From Saccharopolyspora dendranthemae (lineage in GTDB: Bacteria; Actinomycetota; Actinomycetes; Mycobacteriales; Pseudonocardiaceae), in assembly GCF_007829955.1 (NCBI RefSeq), contig NZ_VIWX01000001.1:62001-126000 (forward strand): a stretch of 64,000 nucleotides of DNA. The letters are read 5' to 3'. The position numbers were made by a program, and so were the translations under genes. Position 1 is the stretch's first letter. Each line of letters opens with the position of its first letter. This document shows positions 41,810 through 52,696 of the stretch, piece by piece. A model generated the notes under the pieces. The model did no database searches, was not told the DNA's origin, and saw only the letters and a list, made by a program, of their open reading frames with translations.

Positions 41810-42640
41810 TCACCCGTCCAGGGTGTCGCCGGGCGACGCGAGCACGGTCGGATCGCACCGCTTCCAGAACCGGGCGCCGAGATCGGACAGCCGCACGCTG
41901 CGGCGCACCGCCTTCGTCGACCTCGCCGAGCGCAGCGCTTCCCGGATCCGTGCCTCGGTCTGCAGGATCTCGTACTGGTCGTCCATGTTCTCCAGCTCGG
42001 GACCGATCTCGACCAGCCCCAGCGCGTGCAACCGCGTCAGGTAGTGCGGAACCTCGTCGTGCAGCGCCACTCCCACCGCCCGCCCGACGGTGGATCCGTT
42101 GCGCATCACGAACTTGCTGTTGCCACCGATGCCCGCGCGCTCGGCGACGTGCACCACCGGGTAGGCCGCGCCGTCACCGAGACCCGCGAGGATCCGTGCC
42201 TCGTCGGGCGTGATCAGGCGCAGGATCGCGGCGTAGAAGTGCTCGCGGGCCTCCGCCTTGCTCGCGGTCGCCGAGCGGAACAGGAGCTCGGACATGGCCT
42301 CGCGCAGCCCGTCCTGGGCGTCGGCGTCCTCGTCGTCGGTCGCTTCGGGCGCGGCGTTCCCGGTGAGGTCGCCGTCCGGTTCCTCCTGATCGCGCTCGTC
42401 GACCGAGTCGAGCCAGACGCGCACCCCCGAGGCCACGACCTTCTCGACGGCCTGCACCTGGCGTTGCACCTCGACACCGCCGGGCAGCTCCCTGACCAGG
42501 TCGATCCCGGTGCGCGCGACGTCACGGCCGACCCTGCCCGCCAAGCCGAGCAGGCCGCCGATCACGTTCGACCCGGCCCGCTCGTCCTCGGCGGCGTGCG
42601 GCTCCTCGTCCTTGCGGCTGAGCTCGATCTCCCCTGCCAC
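41810..42640 (-). CDS. Abi-alpha (DUF4393) family protein
   Basis: 276-aa protein of the Abi-alpha/DUF4393 family, first met in phage-abortive-infection contexts. The core EHFYAAILRLITPDEARILAGL and the closing VRLSDLGARFWKRCDP are family-like. An acidic, disordered stretch sits around DERDQEEPDGDLTGNAAPEATDDEDADAQ (a single low-complexity region near residues 80-110). GTG start at 42640 with GGGGG before it; 61 extra codons upstream look non-coding. Its neighbour is DUF445, not a toxin or nuclease, so an anti-phage role is not shown. Confidence 0.78.
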   Translation of the reverse strand: MAGEIELSRKDEEPHAAEDERAGSNVIGGLLGLAGRVGRDVARTGIDLVRELPGGVEVQRQVQAVEKVVASGVRVWLDSVDERDQEEPDGDLTGNAAPEATDDEDADAQDGLREAMSELLFRSATASKAEAREHFYAAILRLITPDEARILAGLGDGAAYPVVHVAERAGIGGNSKFVMRNGSTVGRAVGVALHDEVPHYLTRLHALGLVEIGPELENMDDQYEILQTEARIREALRSARSTKAVRRSVRLSDLGARFWKRCDPTVLASPGDTLDG

Positions 42641-42908
42641 GCGACCCCCTACCGTTGCCCCGACTGCTCGTTGATCCCCGCTCAGGCGATCAACGATCCG
42701 CCGAGTATCACCCGGCCCGCCCCGCGCGGAACAGGTCGGGGTCGATCCCGGATCACCGCGAGGCCGTCCTCCCCGGGCGGCGGGCATCCTCGATCGCGGA
42801 CGCCCAGGCGCGCCGTGCAGCACCGGCTCCAGGCGTGACTTCGTTTCAGCGCGCGGCTACGCGGGCATGGCTGTGCGTGGAGTGGCCGGCTGACATGGAG
42901 GAGCGACG

Positions 42909-43274
42909 GTGGCGAAGAGCAAACCTGACGTTCAGGTGCGCAGGATCTACGAGGAACCGGCCGACCGGGACGGCACCCGCGTGCTGGTCGACCGCGTCTG
43001 GCCTCGCGGGCTGAGCAAGGACAAGGCCTCCCTCAGCGAGTGGTGCAAGGAAGTCGCGCCCTCGACGGAGCTGCGCACGTGGTACGGCCACGATCCGGAG
43101 AAGTTCGTCGAGTTCGACCGCCGCTACCGAGCCGAACTCGATGAGCCGGAGAAGGCCGAGGCGGTCGAGCACTTGCGCGCACTGGCCAGGCGCGAACGGC
43201 TCACGCTGCTGACCGGCACCAAGGACCCGGACATCAGCCAAGCCGCGGTCCTGGTCGACGTCCTGACCGACTGA
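42909..43274 (+). CDS. DUF488 (YeaO-like) protein
   Basis: 121-aa protein with the DUF488 pattern: VQVRRIYEEPADRDGTRVLVDRVWPRGLSKDKA, W.KEVAPSTELRTWYGHDPEKFVEFDRRYRAEL and LTLLTGTKDPDISQAAVLVDVL. Typical length for the family, function unknown. GTG start with GGAGGAG 5 nt before. Stands alone. Confidence 0.9.
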   Translation: MAKSKPDVQVRRIYEEPADRDGTRVLVDRVWPRGLSKDKASLSEWCKEVAPSTELRTWYGHDPEKFVEFDRRYRAELDEPEKAEAVEHLRALARRERLTLLTGTKDPDISQAAVLVDVLTD

Positions 43275-43823: not shown

Positions 43824-44540
43824 TCAGCCGGTGCGCGCGGACCGGTGCAGCTGGACGCAGCACTCGCCGGAACGCGGCTCGAGGGTGGCTGCGGTGCCGG
43901 TGGCGCGCAGCCCGGTGAGGAAACCGGCGAGGAAGGCGTGGTTGATGCCGCAGACCACGTCCGGGGATCGCGCCGCGAGCGGGTGGAAGGGGCAGTTGAG
44001 CAGCCGCACGCACCCGGGTGACTGGCGGGAGGGTTCGAAGCCGTGTCGCGCCAGCACCTCCTCGGCGAGGGTGAGGGCGCGTTCGACGCCGAGCCTGCCC
44101 GGCCGGGAGCGCTCCCGCTCGGCGTCGCCGAGCTGCTGACCTCGTTCGCGAGCGGTGCGCAGCGCGGCTTGCCGGGCGGTTTCGCCCTCCCCCTCGGTGA
44201 GCACGGCCTGCAGCAGGATGTCGGCGAGCAGGTCGTGCTGCCGGGGCGGGATGGAGATCCGGATGTCGACGTCCGCCGGTTCGTAGACCTTCGGGGCCCT
44301 CCCGACCTTGCGGACGCCGCCGCCCGTTTGGGAGCGGGCTACGAGCAACCCGGCGTCGACCAGCTTGTCGAGGTGGAAGGCGGCGAGCTTGCGGGAGATC
44401 CCGACCTCGGCAGCTGCTTCGTCACGGGTCACCGGCCGCCGGGCGCGGCGGATGAACTCGTACATCCCCCACCGCAGCTCGTCGTCCAGGACGGCCACGG
44501 TCGCGATCGGAAGCCCCGGGACGTCACCGCTTGCGCTCAC
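43824..44540 (-). CDS. ArsR/SufR-like regulator with C-terminal Cys motif
   Basis: 238-aa regulator. The winged helix-turn-helix is RWGMYEFIRRARRPVTRDEAAAEVGISRKLAAFHLDKLVDAGLL. The C-terminal half carries CVRLLNCPFHPLAA and DVVCGINHAFLAGFL, then GECCVQL, the Cys arrangement of SufR-type proteins that bind a 4Fe-4S cluster. I choose the GTG at 44540: it lies 6 bases after a TATGCT that looks like a -10, suggesting a leaderless mRNA. Divergent from GTP cyclohydrolase I, whose promoter overlaps operator-like words. Confidence 0.82.
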   Translation of the reverse strand: MSASGDVPGLPIATVAVLDDELRWGMYEFIRRARRPVTRDEAAAEVGISRKLAAFHLDKLVDAGLLVARSQTGGGVRKVGRAPKVYEPADVDIRISIPPRQHDLLADILLQAVLTEGEGETARQAALRTARERGQQLGDAERERSRPGRLGVERALTLAEEVLARHGFEPSRQSPGCVRLLNCPFHPLAARSPDVVCGINHAFLAGFLTGLRATGTAATLEPRSGECCVQLHRSARTG

Positions 44541-44546
44541 CTCACC

Positions 44547-44552
44547 AGCATA
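44547..44552 (-). promoter_or_regulatory. Probable -10 of the SufR-like regulator (leaderless)
   Basis: TATGCT on the minus strand, six bases before the GTG start codon; transcription would begin at or next to the start codon. The -35 region is poor. Confidence 0.4.
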
Positions 44553-44596
44553 GCGTGATTTGTCCAACACAAGTGGGCCGAACCCCTGATTTCACA

Positions 44597-44631
44597 GGAC
44601 ACTTGTTTCCGACTCTCAATAAAACTAATGT
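44597..44631 (+). promoter_or_regulatory. folE promoter with overlapping operator-like palindrome
   Basis: TTGTTT (44603-44608) and TAATGT (44626-44631) are spaced by 17 bases, ending 27 bases before the folE ATG. The -35 overlaps GGACACTTGTTTCC (44597-44610), a near-palindrome. A second ACAAGTG half-site (44569-44575) lies on the regulator side in opposite orientation to CACTTGT (44600-44606). Confidence 0.55.
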
Positions 44632-44658
44632 TTTTTGGTGAAAAGAGAGGAGCTGCCC

Positions 44659-45258
44659 ATGACCCACAGCACCGCACTGCGCGTCGTGCACCAGCCCGAC
44701 ACCGGCATCGACCTCGAAGCAGCCGAACGTGCCGCCGGGCAGCTCTTACGGGCGTTGGGGATCTCCACCGACTCCGAGAGCCTGTCCGGTACCCCGGGCC
44801 GGATCGCCCGCGCCTACGCCGAGCTGTTCACACCTCGGCCGTTCGACCTGACGACCTTCCCCAACGACGAGGGCTACGACGAGATGGTGCTCGCCCGGTC
44901 CATCCCGGTGCGCTCGGTCTGCGAGCACCACCTGCTGCCCTTCGTCGGAGTCGCCCACGTCGGCTACCTGCCCGGCGAGCGCATCCTCGGACTGTCCAAA
45001 CTGGCCAGGATCGTCGAGCACTTCGCCTGCCGCCCGCAGGTTCAGGAGCGCTTGACCAAGCAGGTCGCCGACTGGTTGTCCGAACACCTGCAGCCGAAGG
45101 GCGTGGGTGTGGTGATCGAAGCCGAGCACACCTGCATGACCCTGCGCGGCGCCCGCGCCACCGGCGCCAGCACCGTGACCTCGACCCTGCTGGGCACCCT
45201 GCGCGACGACGCCCGCTCGCGACAGGAGTTCTTCTCCCTGACCGGCGTCCACCGCTGA
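44659..45258 (+). CDS. folE: GTP cyclohydrolase I
   Basis: 199-aa enzyme converting GTP to 7,8-dihydroneopterin triphosphate, first step of folate and pterin synthesis. Zinc ligands Cys88 and His91 (SVCEHHLLPFVG) and Cys159 (EAEHTCMTLRG) with catalytic His157 are present; GLSKLARIVEHFACRPQVQERLT is the usual helix. The start is ATG 44659 with GAGGAG upstream. No other folate gene is near, and the gene is divergent from a SufR-like regulator. It may be a second, regulated FolE used under metal, oxidative or iron-sulfur stress. Confidence 0.94.
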   Translation: MTHSTALRVVHQPDTGIDLEAAERAAGQLLRALGISTDSESLSGTPGRIARAYAELFTPRPFDLTTFPNDEGYDEMVLARSIPVRSVCEHHLLPFVGVAHVGYLPGERILGLSKLARIVEHFACRPQVQERLTKQVADWLSEHLQPKGVGVVIEAEHTCMTLRGARATGASTVTSTLLGTLRDDARSRQEFFSLTGVHR

Positions 45259-45447
45259 CCGGCACCACGCAGCCTCTCGCGGTCACCTCGGTGATGACAC
45301 CGATCCGCCGTCCTTCTTCGATCAGAGCGGGCGCTGCCCCCCTCCAGGAATTCACGCTGCTTCTCCCGCGGTGACAGCTGCTTGGCTAGCGGAAGGTATT
45401 GCGGCTCCACCACATTCATCGACTAACCCTGGCCGAAGCCCGCGTCG

Positions 45448-46968
45448 TCAACCGGAGACGGCCTTGTTCCTCAGCACGTTCTTCTGCAGCTTGCCGGTGG
45501 AGGTCTTCGGAAGGTCGCCGAAGACGATCCTCTTCGGCGCCTTGAACGCGGCGATCCGGGTTCGGACGAACTCGACCAGCTCGGCCTCGCTCGCGCCTCC
45601 GGTCTCGCGCAGGCTGACGAACGCGACCGGGACCTCGCCCCACTTCTCGTCCGGTGCGGCGACGACTGCCGCTTCGAGGACGTCCGGATGGGCGGTGAGT
45701 GCGTTCTCGACCTCGATGGAGGTGATGTTCTCGCCGCCGGAGATGATCACGTCCTTCATCCGGTCGCGCAGTTCGACGTAGCCGTCGGGGTGGCGGACTC
45801 CCAGGTCACCGCTGCGGAACCAGCCGTCGGTCGTGGCGTTGTCGGTGGCTTCGGGATCGCGGTAGTAGCCGAGCATGACGTTGTTGCCGCGCAGCAGGAT
45901 CTCCCCCGGCGTCAGGCCGTCGGCAGGGACGTCCTCGCCGTCGGGATCCGTGACGCGGACCGGTTCGGCGACGACGTTGCCGATGCCCTGCCGGGCGATC
46001 AGCCGCGCGCGGTGCTGCGCGTCGGCCGCGTCCCACTCCGGCTGCCACTCGCAGACGACGGCGGGACCGAAGGTCTCGGTGAGCCCGTAGAGGTGCCGGA
46101 TGTCGAAGCCGAGCTCGCCCATTCGCGCCAGCAGCGCCGGCCACGGCGGTGCGCCCCCGGCGAAGACCCGCAGCACGTGGTCCAGGTCCCGGGCCTCGGG
46201 GTGCTCGGCGAGCATCGACAGGACGGTGGGCGCGGCGCAGAAGTGGGTGATCCCCTCCTCGGTGATCGCCCGCCAGATCGCGCCGGGATCGACCTTCCGC
46301 AGGCAGTGGTGCACACCCCCGGCAGCGGTCACCGCCCACGGGAAGCACCAGCCGTTGGTGTGGAACATCGGCAGCGTCCACAGGTACTGGGAGGACGTGT
46401 CGAGCTTCGCGTGGTAGGCCATCGCCAGGGCCTGCAGGTAGGCGCCCCGGTGGTGGTACATCACGCCCTTGGGGCGGCCGGTGGTGCCGCTGGTGTAGTT
46501 GATCGACAGCAGCGATCGCTCGTCGGCGACCTCGACGCGGTGCGGCTCGGCGCCGTCGACCAGCTCGTCGTAGGACTCGGAGTCGATCACCGGGATCGGC
46601 TGCTCCCCCAGCGCGTCCCGGTGCTCGGCGTCGACCAGGACGAGGCTCGCTCCGCTGTGCTCGAGGATGTAGGAGATCTCGGCCGGGGCGAGCCGGGTGT
46701 TGAGCGCGACCAGCACCGCACCCGCCAGCGGCACGCCGTAGTGGGCTTCCAGAAGCAGGTGCGTGTTCGGCGAGAGCACCGCGACGCGGTCGCCGGGCTC
46801 GACACCCCGCGCGGCCAGGAGCCCGGCCAGCCGCTGCGCGCGCTGCCACAGCTGGGCGTAGGTGTCCCGGCGCTCGCCGTCGACGACGGCGGGCCGGTCG
46901 GCGAACACCGCGGCTGCTCGTTCCAGGAAGGACACCGGAGACAGTTCCCGAAAAGCGATCCCGGTCAA
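45448..46968 (-). CDS. Acyl-CoA synthetase (AMP-binding, fatty/aromatic acid:CoA ligase)
   Basis: 506-aa adenylate-forming ligase. The phosphate loop is YTSGTTGRPKGVMYHHRGAY, then YGLTETFGPAVV, GWFRSGDLGVRHPDGYVELRDRMKDVIISGGENI, and the C-terminal Lys in KTSTGKLQKNVLR. It is of the medium/long-chain FadD type rather than acetyl-CoA synthetase. I start at the TTG 46968, which has GGGAGG 6 nt upstream; longer frames to 47010 and 47070 contain that ribosome site. Convergent with folE across 189 bases that hold no clear gene. Confidence 0.93.
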   Translation of the reverse strand: MTGIAFRELSPVSFLERAAAVFADRPAVVDGERRDTYAQLWQRAQRLAGLLAARGVEPGDRVAVLSPNTHLLLEAHYGVPLAGAVLVALNTRLAPAEISYILEHSGASLVLVDAEHRDALGEQPIPVIDSESYDELVDGAEPHRVEVADERSLLSINYTSGTTGRPKGVMYHHRGAYLQALAMAYHAKLDTSSQYLWTLPMFHTNGWCFPWAVTAAGGVHHCLRKVDPGAIWRAITEEGITHFCAAPTVLSMLAEHPEARDLDHVLRVFAGGAPPWPALLARMGELGFDIRHLYGLTETFGPAVVCEWQPEWDAADAQHRARLIARQGIGNVVAEPVRVTDPDGEDVPADGLTPGEILLRGNNVMLGYYRDPEATDNATTDGWFRSGDLGVRHPDGYVELRDRMKDVIISGGENITSIEVENALTAHPDVLEAAVVAAPDEKWGEVPVAFVSLRETGGASEAELVEFVRTRIAAFKAPKRIVFGDLPKTSTGKLQKNVLRNKAVSG

Positions 46969-47175
46969 CGCGAAACCTCCCTCTCGCCCGTCGTCGGGCG
47001 GGCGGAGCATAACCAACCGGATCGCCTCGGGGCGAGGGTCGGAACTCCTGGCCGCGGGAGTTGTGCGCACCGTCGTCGAGGAGGTCAGCGAGGGCCGAAG
47101 CCTACTTCGACGGGCGAGTTCCTCACGACGTTCTCCCGGTGGCCGCGCGGGAATTCGCCTCCCCCCGCGGTCCGC

Positions 47176-47820
47176 TCACCGCTGCCCGTCCGCGGCGGTG
47201 GAGCCGCCGCCGCGCGCGAGGCCGACGTCGAGCACGAGCGCCTGGCGACGCTGGTGGACGGTGAGGTAACGCAGACCCTCGGGTCCTGCCGTGAACTGGC
47301 GGCGGGACCGGCGCGGGAGCCACACCAGCGCTCCCGCGCTGAGCTCCACGGTGTCGAGTTCGGTCTCGAGCTCGCCGCTGCCGGCGAGAACGTGGATCAG
47401 CACGTCCAGGTCCGGGCCGACGTGCGCGTCGATGCGGCCGTTCGCGGACAGCGCGATGATGTTGGAATCCAGGTCCCGCTCGCGGAAGGGAAGCGTCCAC
47501 ACCGCGCCCGCGGCTCCGCCGTCGGGGACTTCCTCGGCGGTGTTGAGCAGGACCCTGGGCAGCGGGGCGGCCGCCAGCTTGGTGATCTTGATGCGCCAAT
47601 TCCCGGGCTCGCGGCGGAGGTAGTCCCACCGGTGGCTGCCCGGGTGTTCCACCTCGAACTCGTCCCGCAGGTGCTTCGGGTCGTGGTCGTTGATCAGCAC
47701 GAACCCATCACCGACCGGCAACGAGGCGTAGGTGGTGAAGATCGTGGGGTGCTTGTCCGGCTTGCGCAGCGGGCGCACGTCCAGCTCCTGGTCCGGCTGC
47801 GGGGACAGCTCCACCGGCAT
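47176..47820 (-). CDS. DUF2249-cupin protein
   Basis: 214-aa protein of two domains. The N-terminal DUF2249 (residues 1-75) reads LDVRPLRKPDKHPTIFTTYASL and LINDHDPKHLRDEFEVEHPGSHRWDYL. The C-terminal part is a cupin beta-barrel (LIHVLAGSGELETELDTVELSAGALVWLPRRSRRQF). DUF2249 proteins are linked with nitric-oxide and hybrid-cluster functions in other bacteria. It is divergent from a regulator with a Fe-S-type Cys motif, with a large palindrome between, a likely control unit. A metal or NO role is an inference. Confidence 0.85.
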   Translation of the reverse strand: MPVELSPQPDQELDVRPLRKPDKHPTIFTTYASLPVGDGFVLINDHDPKHLRDEFEVEHPGSHRWDYLRREPGNWRIKITKLAAAPLPRVLLNTAEEVPDGGAAGAVWTLPFRERDLDSNIIALSANGRIDAHVGPDLDVLIHVLAGSGELETELDTVELSAGALVWLPRRSRRQFTAGPEGLRYLTVHQRRQALVLDVGLARGGGSTAADGQR

Positions 47821-47833
47821 CGACTCCTCCTGA

Positions 47834-47866
47834 AGAGTTCTTACAAGTCAACCTTGTGTAAACTCT
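47834..47866. promoter_or_regulatory. 33-bp operator-like palindrome between divergent genes
   Basis: Arms AGAGTTCTTACAAG and CTTGTGTAAACTCT (11 of 14 pairs) around TCAAC. It lies 14 bases before the DUF2249-cupin start and 84 bases before the regulator start. The ACAAG/CTTGT inner half-sites resemble the words upstream of folE. Confidence 0.7.
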
Positions 47867-47949
47867 ACGACACGGCCTTCGCCATCGGCGCGTGACCCGA
47901 CGGCCGCACGGGCCGGCGACTTCGCCGCCACCAGGAGGAAGGTGACAGC

Positions 47950-48621
47950 ATGCCGAGCCGGAACACCAGGCCGCAGGACGGCACGGGCCGACGCGGCGAC
48001 ATCGTCCGGGCACTGCGCACGGCGGCACGTCCGCTGCCGATCGCGGAGATCGCCGACCAGCTCCAGGTGCACCCGAACACCGTGCGGTTCCACATGGACG
48101 CCCTCGTGGCGAACGGCCAGGTCGAGCCCGTCAGCCCGGAGCACCGGACTCCGGGCAGGCCGCCCCGGCTGTTCCAGGCCGTCGCGGGGATGAACCCGAC
48201 CGGGCCCCGGCACTACCGGCTGCTGGCCGAAGTCCTGGTCGACGCCATCGCCGCCGAGCCCGACCGAGCCGACCGCGCGGTCGAGGCCGGCAGCGCCTGG
48301 GGACGCAAGCACGGCACAGCGACGGGCGCGCACGACTCGGGCCAGGCCGTCGACGACCTCGTCGCGCTGCTCGACGACATCGGCTTCGCCCCGGAGAGGG
48401 AGACCGATCGCGAGTCCGGCGGTGCGCCGCAGATCAGCCTGCGGAACTGCCCGTTCCTCGAATTCGCTGCGACCGAGCCGCAGATCACCTGCGCGATCCA
48501 CCTGGGCCTGATGCGAGGAGCGGTGGGCGCGGAAGAATCCCCGATCACGGTCGAGCGGTTGGAGCCGTTCGCCGCACCCGACCGGTGCGTCGTCCACCTG
48601 GCCACCGCCGAGCGGGATTGA
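47950..48621 (+). CDS. HTH regulator with SufR-like Cys motif
   Basis: 223-aa DeoR/ArsR-like regulator. The helix-turn-helix is RPLPIAEIADQLQVHPNTVRFHMDALVANGQVE. The C-terminal half has SLRNCPFLEFAATEPQITCAIHLGLMRG and later DRCVVHL, the same Cys spacing as the regulator at 43824. This predicts a cluster-binding sensor, for example of NO or redox. AGGAGGAAGG precedes the ATG. It is followed by the zinc-ribbon gene at 48644 after 22 nt. Confidence 0.85.
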   Translation: MPSRNTRPQDGTGRRGDIVRALRTAARPLPIAEIADQLQVHPNTVRFHMDALVANGQVEPVSPEHRTPGRPPRLFQAVAGMNPTGPRHYRLLAEVLVDAIAAEPDRADRAVEAGSAWGRKHGTATGAHDSGQAVDDLVALLDDIGFAPERETDRESGGAPQISLRNCPFLEFAATEPQITCAIHLGLMRGAVGAEESPITVERLEPFAAPDRCVVHLATAERD

Positions 48622-48643
48622 TGATCACGACAGCGGGGAGATC

Positions 48644-48781
48644 ATGAGCGAACCCGATCCCCAGGGCGACCCGGCCTGCTGGCTGGCGCGCGTCTGCCCG
48701 GAATGCGGCCGCATCGCCGACGAGGACCCACCCACCCGCTGCCAGAACTGCGGCGCGGAGATCGACCCGGACGGCGAGTGA
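48644..48781 (+). CDS. Small zinc-ribbon protein
   Basis: 45-aa protein MSEPDPQGDPACWLARVCPE then CGRIADEDPP, CQNCGAEIDPDGE. Two CxxC knuckles (VCPECG and CQNCG) form a rubredoxin-like zinc ribbon. GGGGAG lies 3 bases before the ATG and the gene follows the cluster-sensing regulator by 22 nt, so it is probably the last gene of that transcript. Function unknown. Confidence 0.75.
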   Translation: MSEPDPQGDPACWLARVCPECGRIADEDPPTRCQNCGAEIDPDGE

Positions 48782-50161: not shown

Positions 50162-50206
50162 TAGATGGCGGCGATGCTTCGCAACACCGCCACGAGGAGG
50201 TTGAGA

Positions 50207-52696
<2,490 letters not shown>

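Follow-up and report, generated by a model that had tools for sequence, protein, structure and literature searches.

Introduction

The described systems closest to the regulators treated here are ArnR and SufR. ArnR is a proven [4Fe-4S] sensor of nitric oxide (NO) in Corynebacterium glutamicum, where it represses narKGHJI and hmp. Its ligands are C179, C193 and C223 (spacing 14/30) with a conserved His near by, its sensor domain is reported to have a TRAPP fold, and it carries some Zn; Cys-to-Ala variants lose both the cluster and DNA binding, and NO stops DNA binding (PMC12343034). The same paper terms Rv2621c ArnR-like, and Rv2621c appears among the regulators raised on day 1 when nitrite was used to model Mycobacterium tuberculosis non-culturability (PMC6593118). 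For SufR, the suf repressor, the ligands reported in Rv1460 are C203, C216 and C244, with a spacing of 13/28 (PMC6034842), and the operator is CAAC-N6-GTTG (PMC8593673). We analyzed a 64,000-nucleotide stretch of Saccharopolyspora dendranthemae DNA (contig NZ_VIWX01000001.1, positions 62,001 to 126,000; hereafter the window) that encodes two winged helix-turn-helix (wHTH) regulators with C-terminal Cys motifs, R1 and R2. R1 is divergent from a second copy of folE (folE2) and R2 from a gene for a DUF2249-cupin protein. A first-pass annotation of the window had reported both open reading frames, their Cys motifs and the two divergent genes, and all of them were where it had placed them.

We judge it probable that both R1 and R2 act as local repressors of the SufR/ArnR type, most likely [4Fe-4S] proteins, each acting on a dyad of its own and released when the cluster is damaged or lost, most likely through NO. 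Homology, invariant candidate ligands, distinct conserved dyads, single genome sites and gene linkage form the basis of this reading, and from them we infer the cluster, its ligands, DNA binding, repression and the signal. Holo-R1 would sit on a 26-bp dyad over the -10 region and keep the second folE off, while holo-R2 would occupy ACAAG-N5-CTTGT and keep the DUF2249-cupin gene off, and probably R2 itself too. In both cases the promoter would be freed once the cluster is nitrosylated or lost, NO being the most likely cause. FolE2 would be a spare for a Zn-Cys enzyme, and the DUF2249-cupin protein would be linked to NO or denitrification. R1 and R2 thus appear to be a variant of the SufR/ArnR kind that forms two classes and is not SufR itself; we found no description of these regulators, their loci or folE2 control in open-licence PMC papers.

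Table 1. Features of the R1/R2 region and related matches in the host genome (G000). Positions without a contig name are those of the window.
Feature	Position	Strand	Remarks
R1, 248-aa winged-HTH regulator, R1-type	43824..44570	-	Pfam HTH_20; Cys193, Cys207, Cys237, Cys238
R2, 223-aa winged-HTH regulator, R2-type	47950..48621	+	Pfam HTH_20; Cys167, Cys181, Cys213, invariant His184
Conserved 26-bp imperfect dyad, proposed R1 operator	44618..44643	+	15 bp before folE start
Proposed R2 operator, ACAAG-TCAAC-CTTGT core (47843-47857) in 14-nt inverted arms	47834..47866		arms 79% complementary
folE paralog, second GTP cyclohydrolase I, Zn-ligand motif kept	44659..45258	+	PF01227 7e-63 (query started one codon upstream, 44656)
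DUF2249-cupin protein, proposed R2 target	47176..47820	-	PF10006 1e-25; Cupin_2 below cut-off
ACAAGTG-N24-CACTTGT pair	44569..44606		0 in 100 shuffles; not likely to be the main operator
45-aa zinc-ribbon-like peptide after R2	48644..48781	+	Pfam zinc-ribbon matches below cut-off
DUF488 protein near R1	42909..43274	+	PF22752/PF04343
NO synthase matches	G000:C1:1534527-1535585; G000:C3:412340-413254

Two regulator classes of the SufR/ArnR kind

R1 and R2 lie at about 106 kb and 110 kb on contig C1 of the 6.4-Mb host genome, 3.4 kb apart, with folE, an acyl-CoA synthetase gene and the DUF2249-cupin gene between them. Both matched HTH_20, R1 barely over the Pfam cut-off. They are homologous over most of their length (BLASTP 1e-13; profile-profile 6e-33), but at 26% identity they are distant, anciently related proteins, and the earlier description of the pair as duplicated, in the sense of a recent event, is not supported. 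When a profile of R2 relatives was run against the genome, with 150 of 230 candidates scored, only three matches spanning most of the profile were obtained, namely R2, R1 and a suf-linked SufR at 961 kb on the same contig. Against NF033788, the profile of ArsR/SmtB metalloregulators, R1 scored 18.7 bits (curated cut-off 55) and R2 gave no match.

The suf-linked SufR (G000:C1:961031) stands beside a sufB-like frame, recognised by reading its translation, and its first Cys spacing is 13. Profile alignment to this protein (hhalign) gave 5e-11 for the R1 set and 4e-14 for the R2 set, indicating a homologous wHTH and Cys domain. Neither R1 nor R2 matched TIGR02702, the NCBIfam profile of SufR, at E 0.01; among their aligned relatives the profile matched 10 of 16 R2-type members weakly (best 6e-7) and none of 16 R1-type members, and the suf-linked SufR itself was below the cut-off (84.7 versus 178.8 bits).

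The candidate ligands set the two classes apart. Besides the four Cys given in Table 1, R1 has C187. The four were invariant in all 16 aligned R1-type proteins (R1 itself plus 15 that have 35-80% identity to it), as were the three Cys and H184 in all 16 R2-type proteins, both sets being hand-chosen. We also compiled 80 named R1 loci, the best 80 of 545 confirmed (two come from one genome and some are short contigs), which span Streptomyces, Nocardia, Amycolatopsis, Microbispora, Actinomadura and others. The strict NCPF-C-CC pattern was present in 77 of them; two others keep the Cys without the Asn before CPF, and one was unreadable. No R1 frame could be read in L115 and L168 from the start point chosen. 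C238 in R1 and H184 in R2 are candidate fourth ligands.

The SufR-type Cys arrangement of the first-pass annotation did not hold up, as R1 (193/207/237) and R2 (167/181/213) both differ in spacing from Rv1460 (203/216/244). R1 has exactly the 14/30 spacing of ArnR, and R2, at 14/32, shares the first ArnR spacing only. ArnR and the window's regulators have in common a wHTH with a C-terminal sensor domain; a conserved His is noted in ArnR, and the R2 class has an invariant one; they differ in the fourth invariant Cys of R1, in the second R2 spacing and in their neighbours, which are folE2 and the DUF2249-cupin gene rather than nar or hmp. With SufR (Rv1460 and the proteins of Synechocystis and S. 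avermitilis) they share profile homology, C-terminal Cys and the placement of a repressor beside its own target, whereas the spacing, the suf operon and the operator of SufR are different. NsrR, of the Rrf2 family, has the same logic of an NO-responsive [4Fe-4S] local repressor but is a separate protein family.

A model of R1 built from a 45-sequence alignment (pLDDT 85) has a winged HTH and an alpha/beta C-terminal domain. Matches of the whole model to solved structures were dominated by ArsR-type wHTH domains; weak Foldseek matches to TRAPPII chains and TPC6 (E 0.009-0.022, TM by target up to 0.51) were also listed, TRAPP being the fold reported for the ArnR sensor domain. The single-sequence model of R2 was poor (pLDDT 60.5) and was not used, and no useful solved structure was matched by sequence.

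Separate conserved dyads at the two loci

The 26-bp dyad before folE covers a -10-like TAATGT (44626-44631) that lies, as read by eye, 17 bp from TTGTTT (44603-44608). A genome pattern written to include this site matched nowhere else in the 6.4 Mb at up to 3 mismatches (control 0). We searched for motifs without a prior in the intergenic regions of 71 of the 80 R1 loci, the 9 loci without any sought neighbour being excluded, and found ATAAGACCAAnATTTgTTGGTGAAAt in 71 of 71 regions at 35 bits; two sets of block-shuffled controls gave 15.5-17.1 bits in 13-16 of 71. These regions are related by descent, but the sequence flanking the motif looked far less alike. The motif has imperfect dyad symmetry (the correlation at zero offset, 0.52, was the highest of nine offsets), and some individual sites, L174 and L191 for example, come close to perfect palindromes.

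The proposed R2 operator, ACAAG-N5-CTTGT, occurs once in the window and in none of 100 shuffles, and its only perfect match in the genome is this one. Promoters of R2 relatives have ACAAC-N5-GTTGT where the window has ACAAG-N5-CTTGT, so that both arms change together. In a blind expectation-maximisation search of 26 upstream regions, the top motif was coding-like and the expected R2 dyad came second, in 12 of 26. We then built a matrix from six eye-read sites, leaving four further typed sites unused. It gave 27 readings above 12 bits, 12 of which were the six training sites on both strands, compared with 3 such readings on block-shuffled sequence in three one-strand passes. Sites outside the training set were in the fdxA/DUF2249 gap of L139 (the Nocardioides JS614 plasmid), L129 and L133, and before another gene in L136. 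No additional R2 targets are claimed in the genome, where a 2-mismatch pattern was at control level (6 versus 10). With one good site per dyad in the genome, both regulators look local.

The first-pass annotation had proposed similar ACAAG/CTTGT half-sites in both intergenic regions. Before the DUF2249-cupin gene the pair is conserved and of the R2 type; before folE an ACAAG/CTTGT pair was present in only 1 of 71 orthologous intergenic regions, and the ACAAGTG/CACTTGT pair there, whose left arm overlaps the listed R1 start codon, was rejected as the main R1 operator. Single ACAAG sites were at chance level in the window (52, against a shuffle mean of 47.1; 19 of 100 shuffles reach 52). R1 and R2 therefore carry different conserved dyads, with an ACCAA-N6-TTGGT core for R1 and ACAAS-N5-STTGT for R2, and neither is the SufR operator. 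The idea of cluster-based sensors with different outputs is still the best reading of the pair, given the invariant Cys and a spacing nearest to that of ArnR, but the SufR model and the shared operator that came with it are not retained.

The R1-linked folE paralog

R1-like regulators and folE paralogs occur together. In a family sample of 150 genomes, an R1-like regulator was found in 62 (E 1e-30) and a folE paralog was scored in 63; the regulator was present in 57 of the 63 genomes with the paralog and in 5 of the 87 without it (p 3e-28), in a table to which one genome, G011, was added by hand as a carrier of the paralog (one match, incomplete genome) and in which G084 and G106 are doubtful. 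Among the 80 best R1 loci, folE was present in 50 and a DUF2231 gene in 48, and the nearest divergent neighbour among those sought was DUF2231 in 48, folE in 22, a membrane protein in 1 and none in 9. S. spinosa is among the species with an R1-folE pair. A set of 20 distant R1-type loci, of which 18 had folE, gives no rate because it was chosen mostly for nearby folE.

Seven R1-linked folE genes (L101, L103, L106, L107, L109, L128 and L139) are directly followed by a ferredoxin-NAD reductase-like gene, which suggests an operon with an electron-transfer step. The L139 copy is HcaD-like and weaker to NorW.

The host genome has another folE on contig C7 (G000:C7:16353-17858), which we take for the housekeeping gene; read by eye, an ftsH-like frame precedes it and a folP-like frame follows. 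This gene is interrupted just ahead of the Cys of its CEHH motif by an intein-like stretch of about 320 residues, which contains a LAGLIDADG domain. The main folE looks split in the same way in 21 of the 150 family genomes, the intein having been read in the window's genome and the other 20 judged from the match pattern. We rejected the idea that genomes with the intein keep the R1-linked folE as a spare: the paralog was present in 10 of 21 split cases and 53 of 129 others (p 0.64).

A spare FolE could also serve under metal stress. R1 and R2 would then be metalloregulators whose Cys site binds Zn, Cu or Co directly, with FolE2 covering metal stress as in metal-resistant Cupriavidus; C. metallidurans uses FolE isoenzymes when stressed by zinc and cadmium (PMC10882993). 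The ArsR/SmtB type of the wHTH and the CC motif of R1 fit such a role. However, the CEHH Zn-ligand motif is kept in 104 of 105 paralog-side matches (some are repeats of one locus), so the second FolE does not look like a metal-promiscuous type, and the DUF2249, fdxA and ctaD neighbours described below do not suggest metals, although metal transporters near the loci were not systematically searched for. We regard this explanation as unlikely.

DUF2249 and the neighbourhoods of R2 relatives

The DUF2249-cupin gene is the only DUF2249 found in the host genome. In Haloferax mediterranei, DUF2249 genes rise under denitrification (PMC11218638). The R2 class was present in 70 of 296 class-wide genomes (E 1e-40). 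DUF2249 lay within 1.5 kb of 15 of 30 family-level R2 matches, the window's own included, and within the same distance the best 29 class-wide R2-type loci had fdxA (13), DUF2249 (12), ctaD (3) and NsrR-like plus Hmp (1). Twenty larger class-wide R2 regions contained ctaD (2), aconitase (1), aceE (1) and NsrR-like plus Hmp (1). In L148 and L272, NsrR-like genes were about 5 kb or less from the R2 relatives; for L148, neither the NsrR nor the Hmp match reached its curated cut-off.

Some relatives lie in plasmid neighbourhoods rich in central-enzyme genes. The Nocardioides JS614 plasmid has folE, aceE, fdxA, ctaD, tal and gap with one regulator of each class, and the Rhodococcus opacus and ZPP plasmids have aconitase, glutamate synthase, tal, folE, fdxA and ctaD. 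The ZPP plasmid also carries sdhB and an annotated truncated haemoglobin, a label that rests on the record, with no NCBIfam or Pfam match at 0.001. Near the regulators of an R. erythropolis plasmid are metH, a flavohaemoprotein-like gene and an NsrR-like gene. In four plasmid loci (L139, L141, L142 and L148), regulators of the R1 and R2 types are interspersed, together with DUF488 and slipin/SPFH genes, among genes for aconitase, SdhB, CtaD, FdxA, AceE, MetH, transaldolase, GAPDH and FolE, not all of which occur in each. The plasmid central-enzyme genes are presumably second copies.

The Streptomyces NBC_00271 plasmid has DUF2249, fdxA, ctaD, an annotated truncated haemoglobin and Rrf2; Kitasatospora NBC_00039 has none of these neighbours. 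Four records lacked annotation; scanned by similarity, L143 and L149 each showed an aconitase relative and L146 showed DUF2249, with nothing relevant in L144. Streptomyces NBC_00525 has only a DUF2231-membrane protein-folE unit, with an iron-siderophore ABC transporter about 12 kb from its R1 relative.

These neighbourhoods can be read in another way, in which R1 and R2 are the same local Fe-S repressors but answer iron or Fe-S shortage or general oxidative stress, by a SufR-like logic, and not NO. The homology to SufR and the siderophore transporter fit this. Relatives' loci also hold genes for aconitase, SdhB, ferredoxin, MetH and catalase, as would suit general cluster or oxidant damage, and SufR answers redox stress and iron starvation (PMC8593673). 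Yet suf genes are not neighbours of R1 or R2, the suf-linked SufR being separate on the same contig, and the DUF2249 and NsrR-like/Hmp neighbours point to nitrogen oxides. We think an iron or oxidant signal somewhat improbable, though the most serious of the alternatives to NO.

NO as the likely signal

Several points weigh against NO-responsive cluster repressors. The likeness to ArnR is one of Cys spacing and domain layout; the cluster in R1 and R2 is predicted, and Cys sets of this kind can also bind zinc, some of which was present in ArnR. No hmp, nor or nar gene stands beside R1 or R2 among the annotated window genes; nar and hmp were not searched for genome-wide. Enzymes that NO attacks are rare in the 80 best R1 loci (aconitase 1, sdhB 1, DUF2249 1, ctaD 0, fdxA 0), and many plasmid neighbours, such as transaldolase, DUF488 and carbonic anhydrase, are not classical NO targets. 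Finally, the second folE was weakly associated with NO synthase, which was present in 42 of 63 genomes with the paralog and 42 of 87 without (p 0.03, uncorrected).

That association would suit a role of R1 in pterin supply for NO synthase, which uses a tetrahydropterin cofactor, and hence in NO production rather than NO defence. The host genome has two NO synthase genes, and 84 of the 150 family genomes have at least one. Nevertheless, almost half of the paralog-free genomes have NO synthase, 21 of the 63 paralog genomes have none, and neither gene of the host is near folE2; we consider this role very improbable.

Known targets of NO include aconitase, cytochrome oxidase, pyruvate dehydrogenase and the B12-dependent MetH. 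If R1 and R2 do respond to NO, they could belong to a decentralised actinomycete NO regulon, in which mobile spare-enzyme islands, made of small units each with its own [4Fe-4S] sensor, swap to NO-tolerant isoenzymes piecewise. We offer this wider scheme only tentatively. It would have two sensor subfamilies with different operators, their fourth ligand supplied by CC in the R1 class and by His in the R2 class, and its spare enzymes might include FolE2, aconitase, SdhB, cytochrome oxidase subunit I, FdxA, pyruvate dehydrogenase E1 and B12-dependent methionine synthase. Because NO-target enzymes are rare near R1 and few in the R2 regions, the rich islands are a minority.

Other genes around the pair

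Relatives of the zinc-ribbon-like peptide that follows R2 were seen right behind an R1-type regulator (L101:6587-6700) and about 2 kb from one (L106:8564-8665); since the window copy is by R2, the peptide seems to move between classes. Relatives of the DUF488 protein recur in L100, L133, L139, L141 and L142. At 1.5 kb beyond R2 is a gene for an ATPase of the Clp type (ClpC/ClpB-like; 50165-52696), and 1 kb from R1 is a gene for a Pfam Abi_alpha (abortive infection alpha) protein (41810-42823; 8.5e-34).

Implications

The analysis flags plasmid loci where genes for NO-sensitive enzymes gather, and it places a second GTP cyclohydrolase and the unexplained DUF2249 domain under probable Fe-S/NO control. 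For two widespread regulator classes it supplies candidate ligands, proposed operators and single target units, which allows their cluster chemistry to be probed alongside the response of the promoters.

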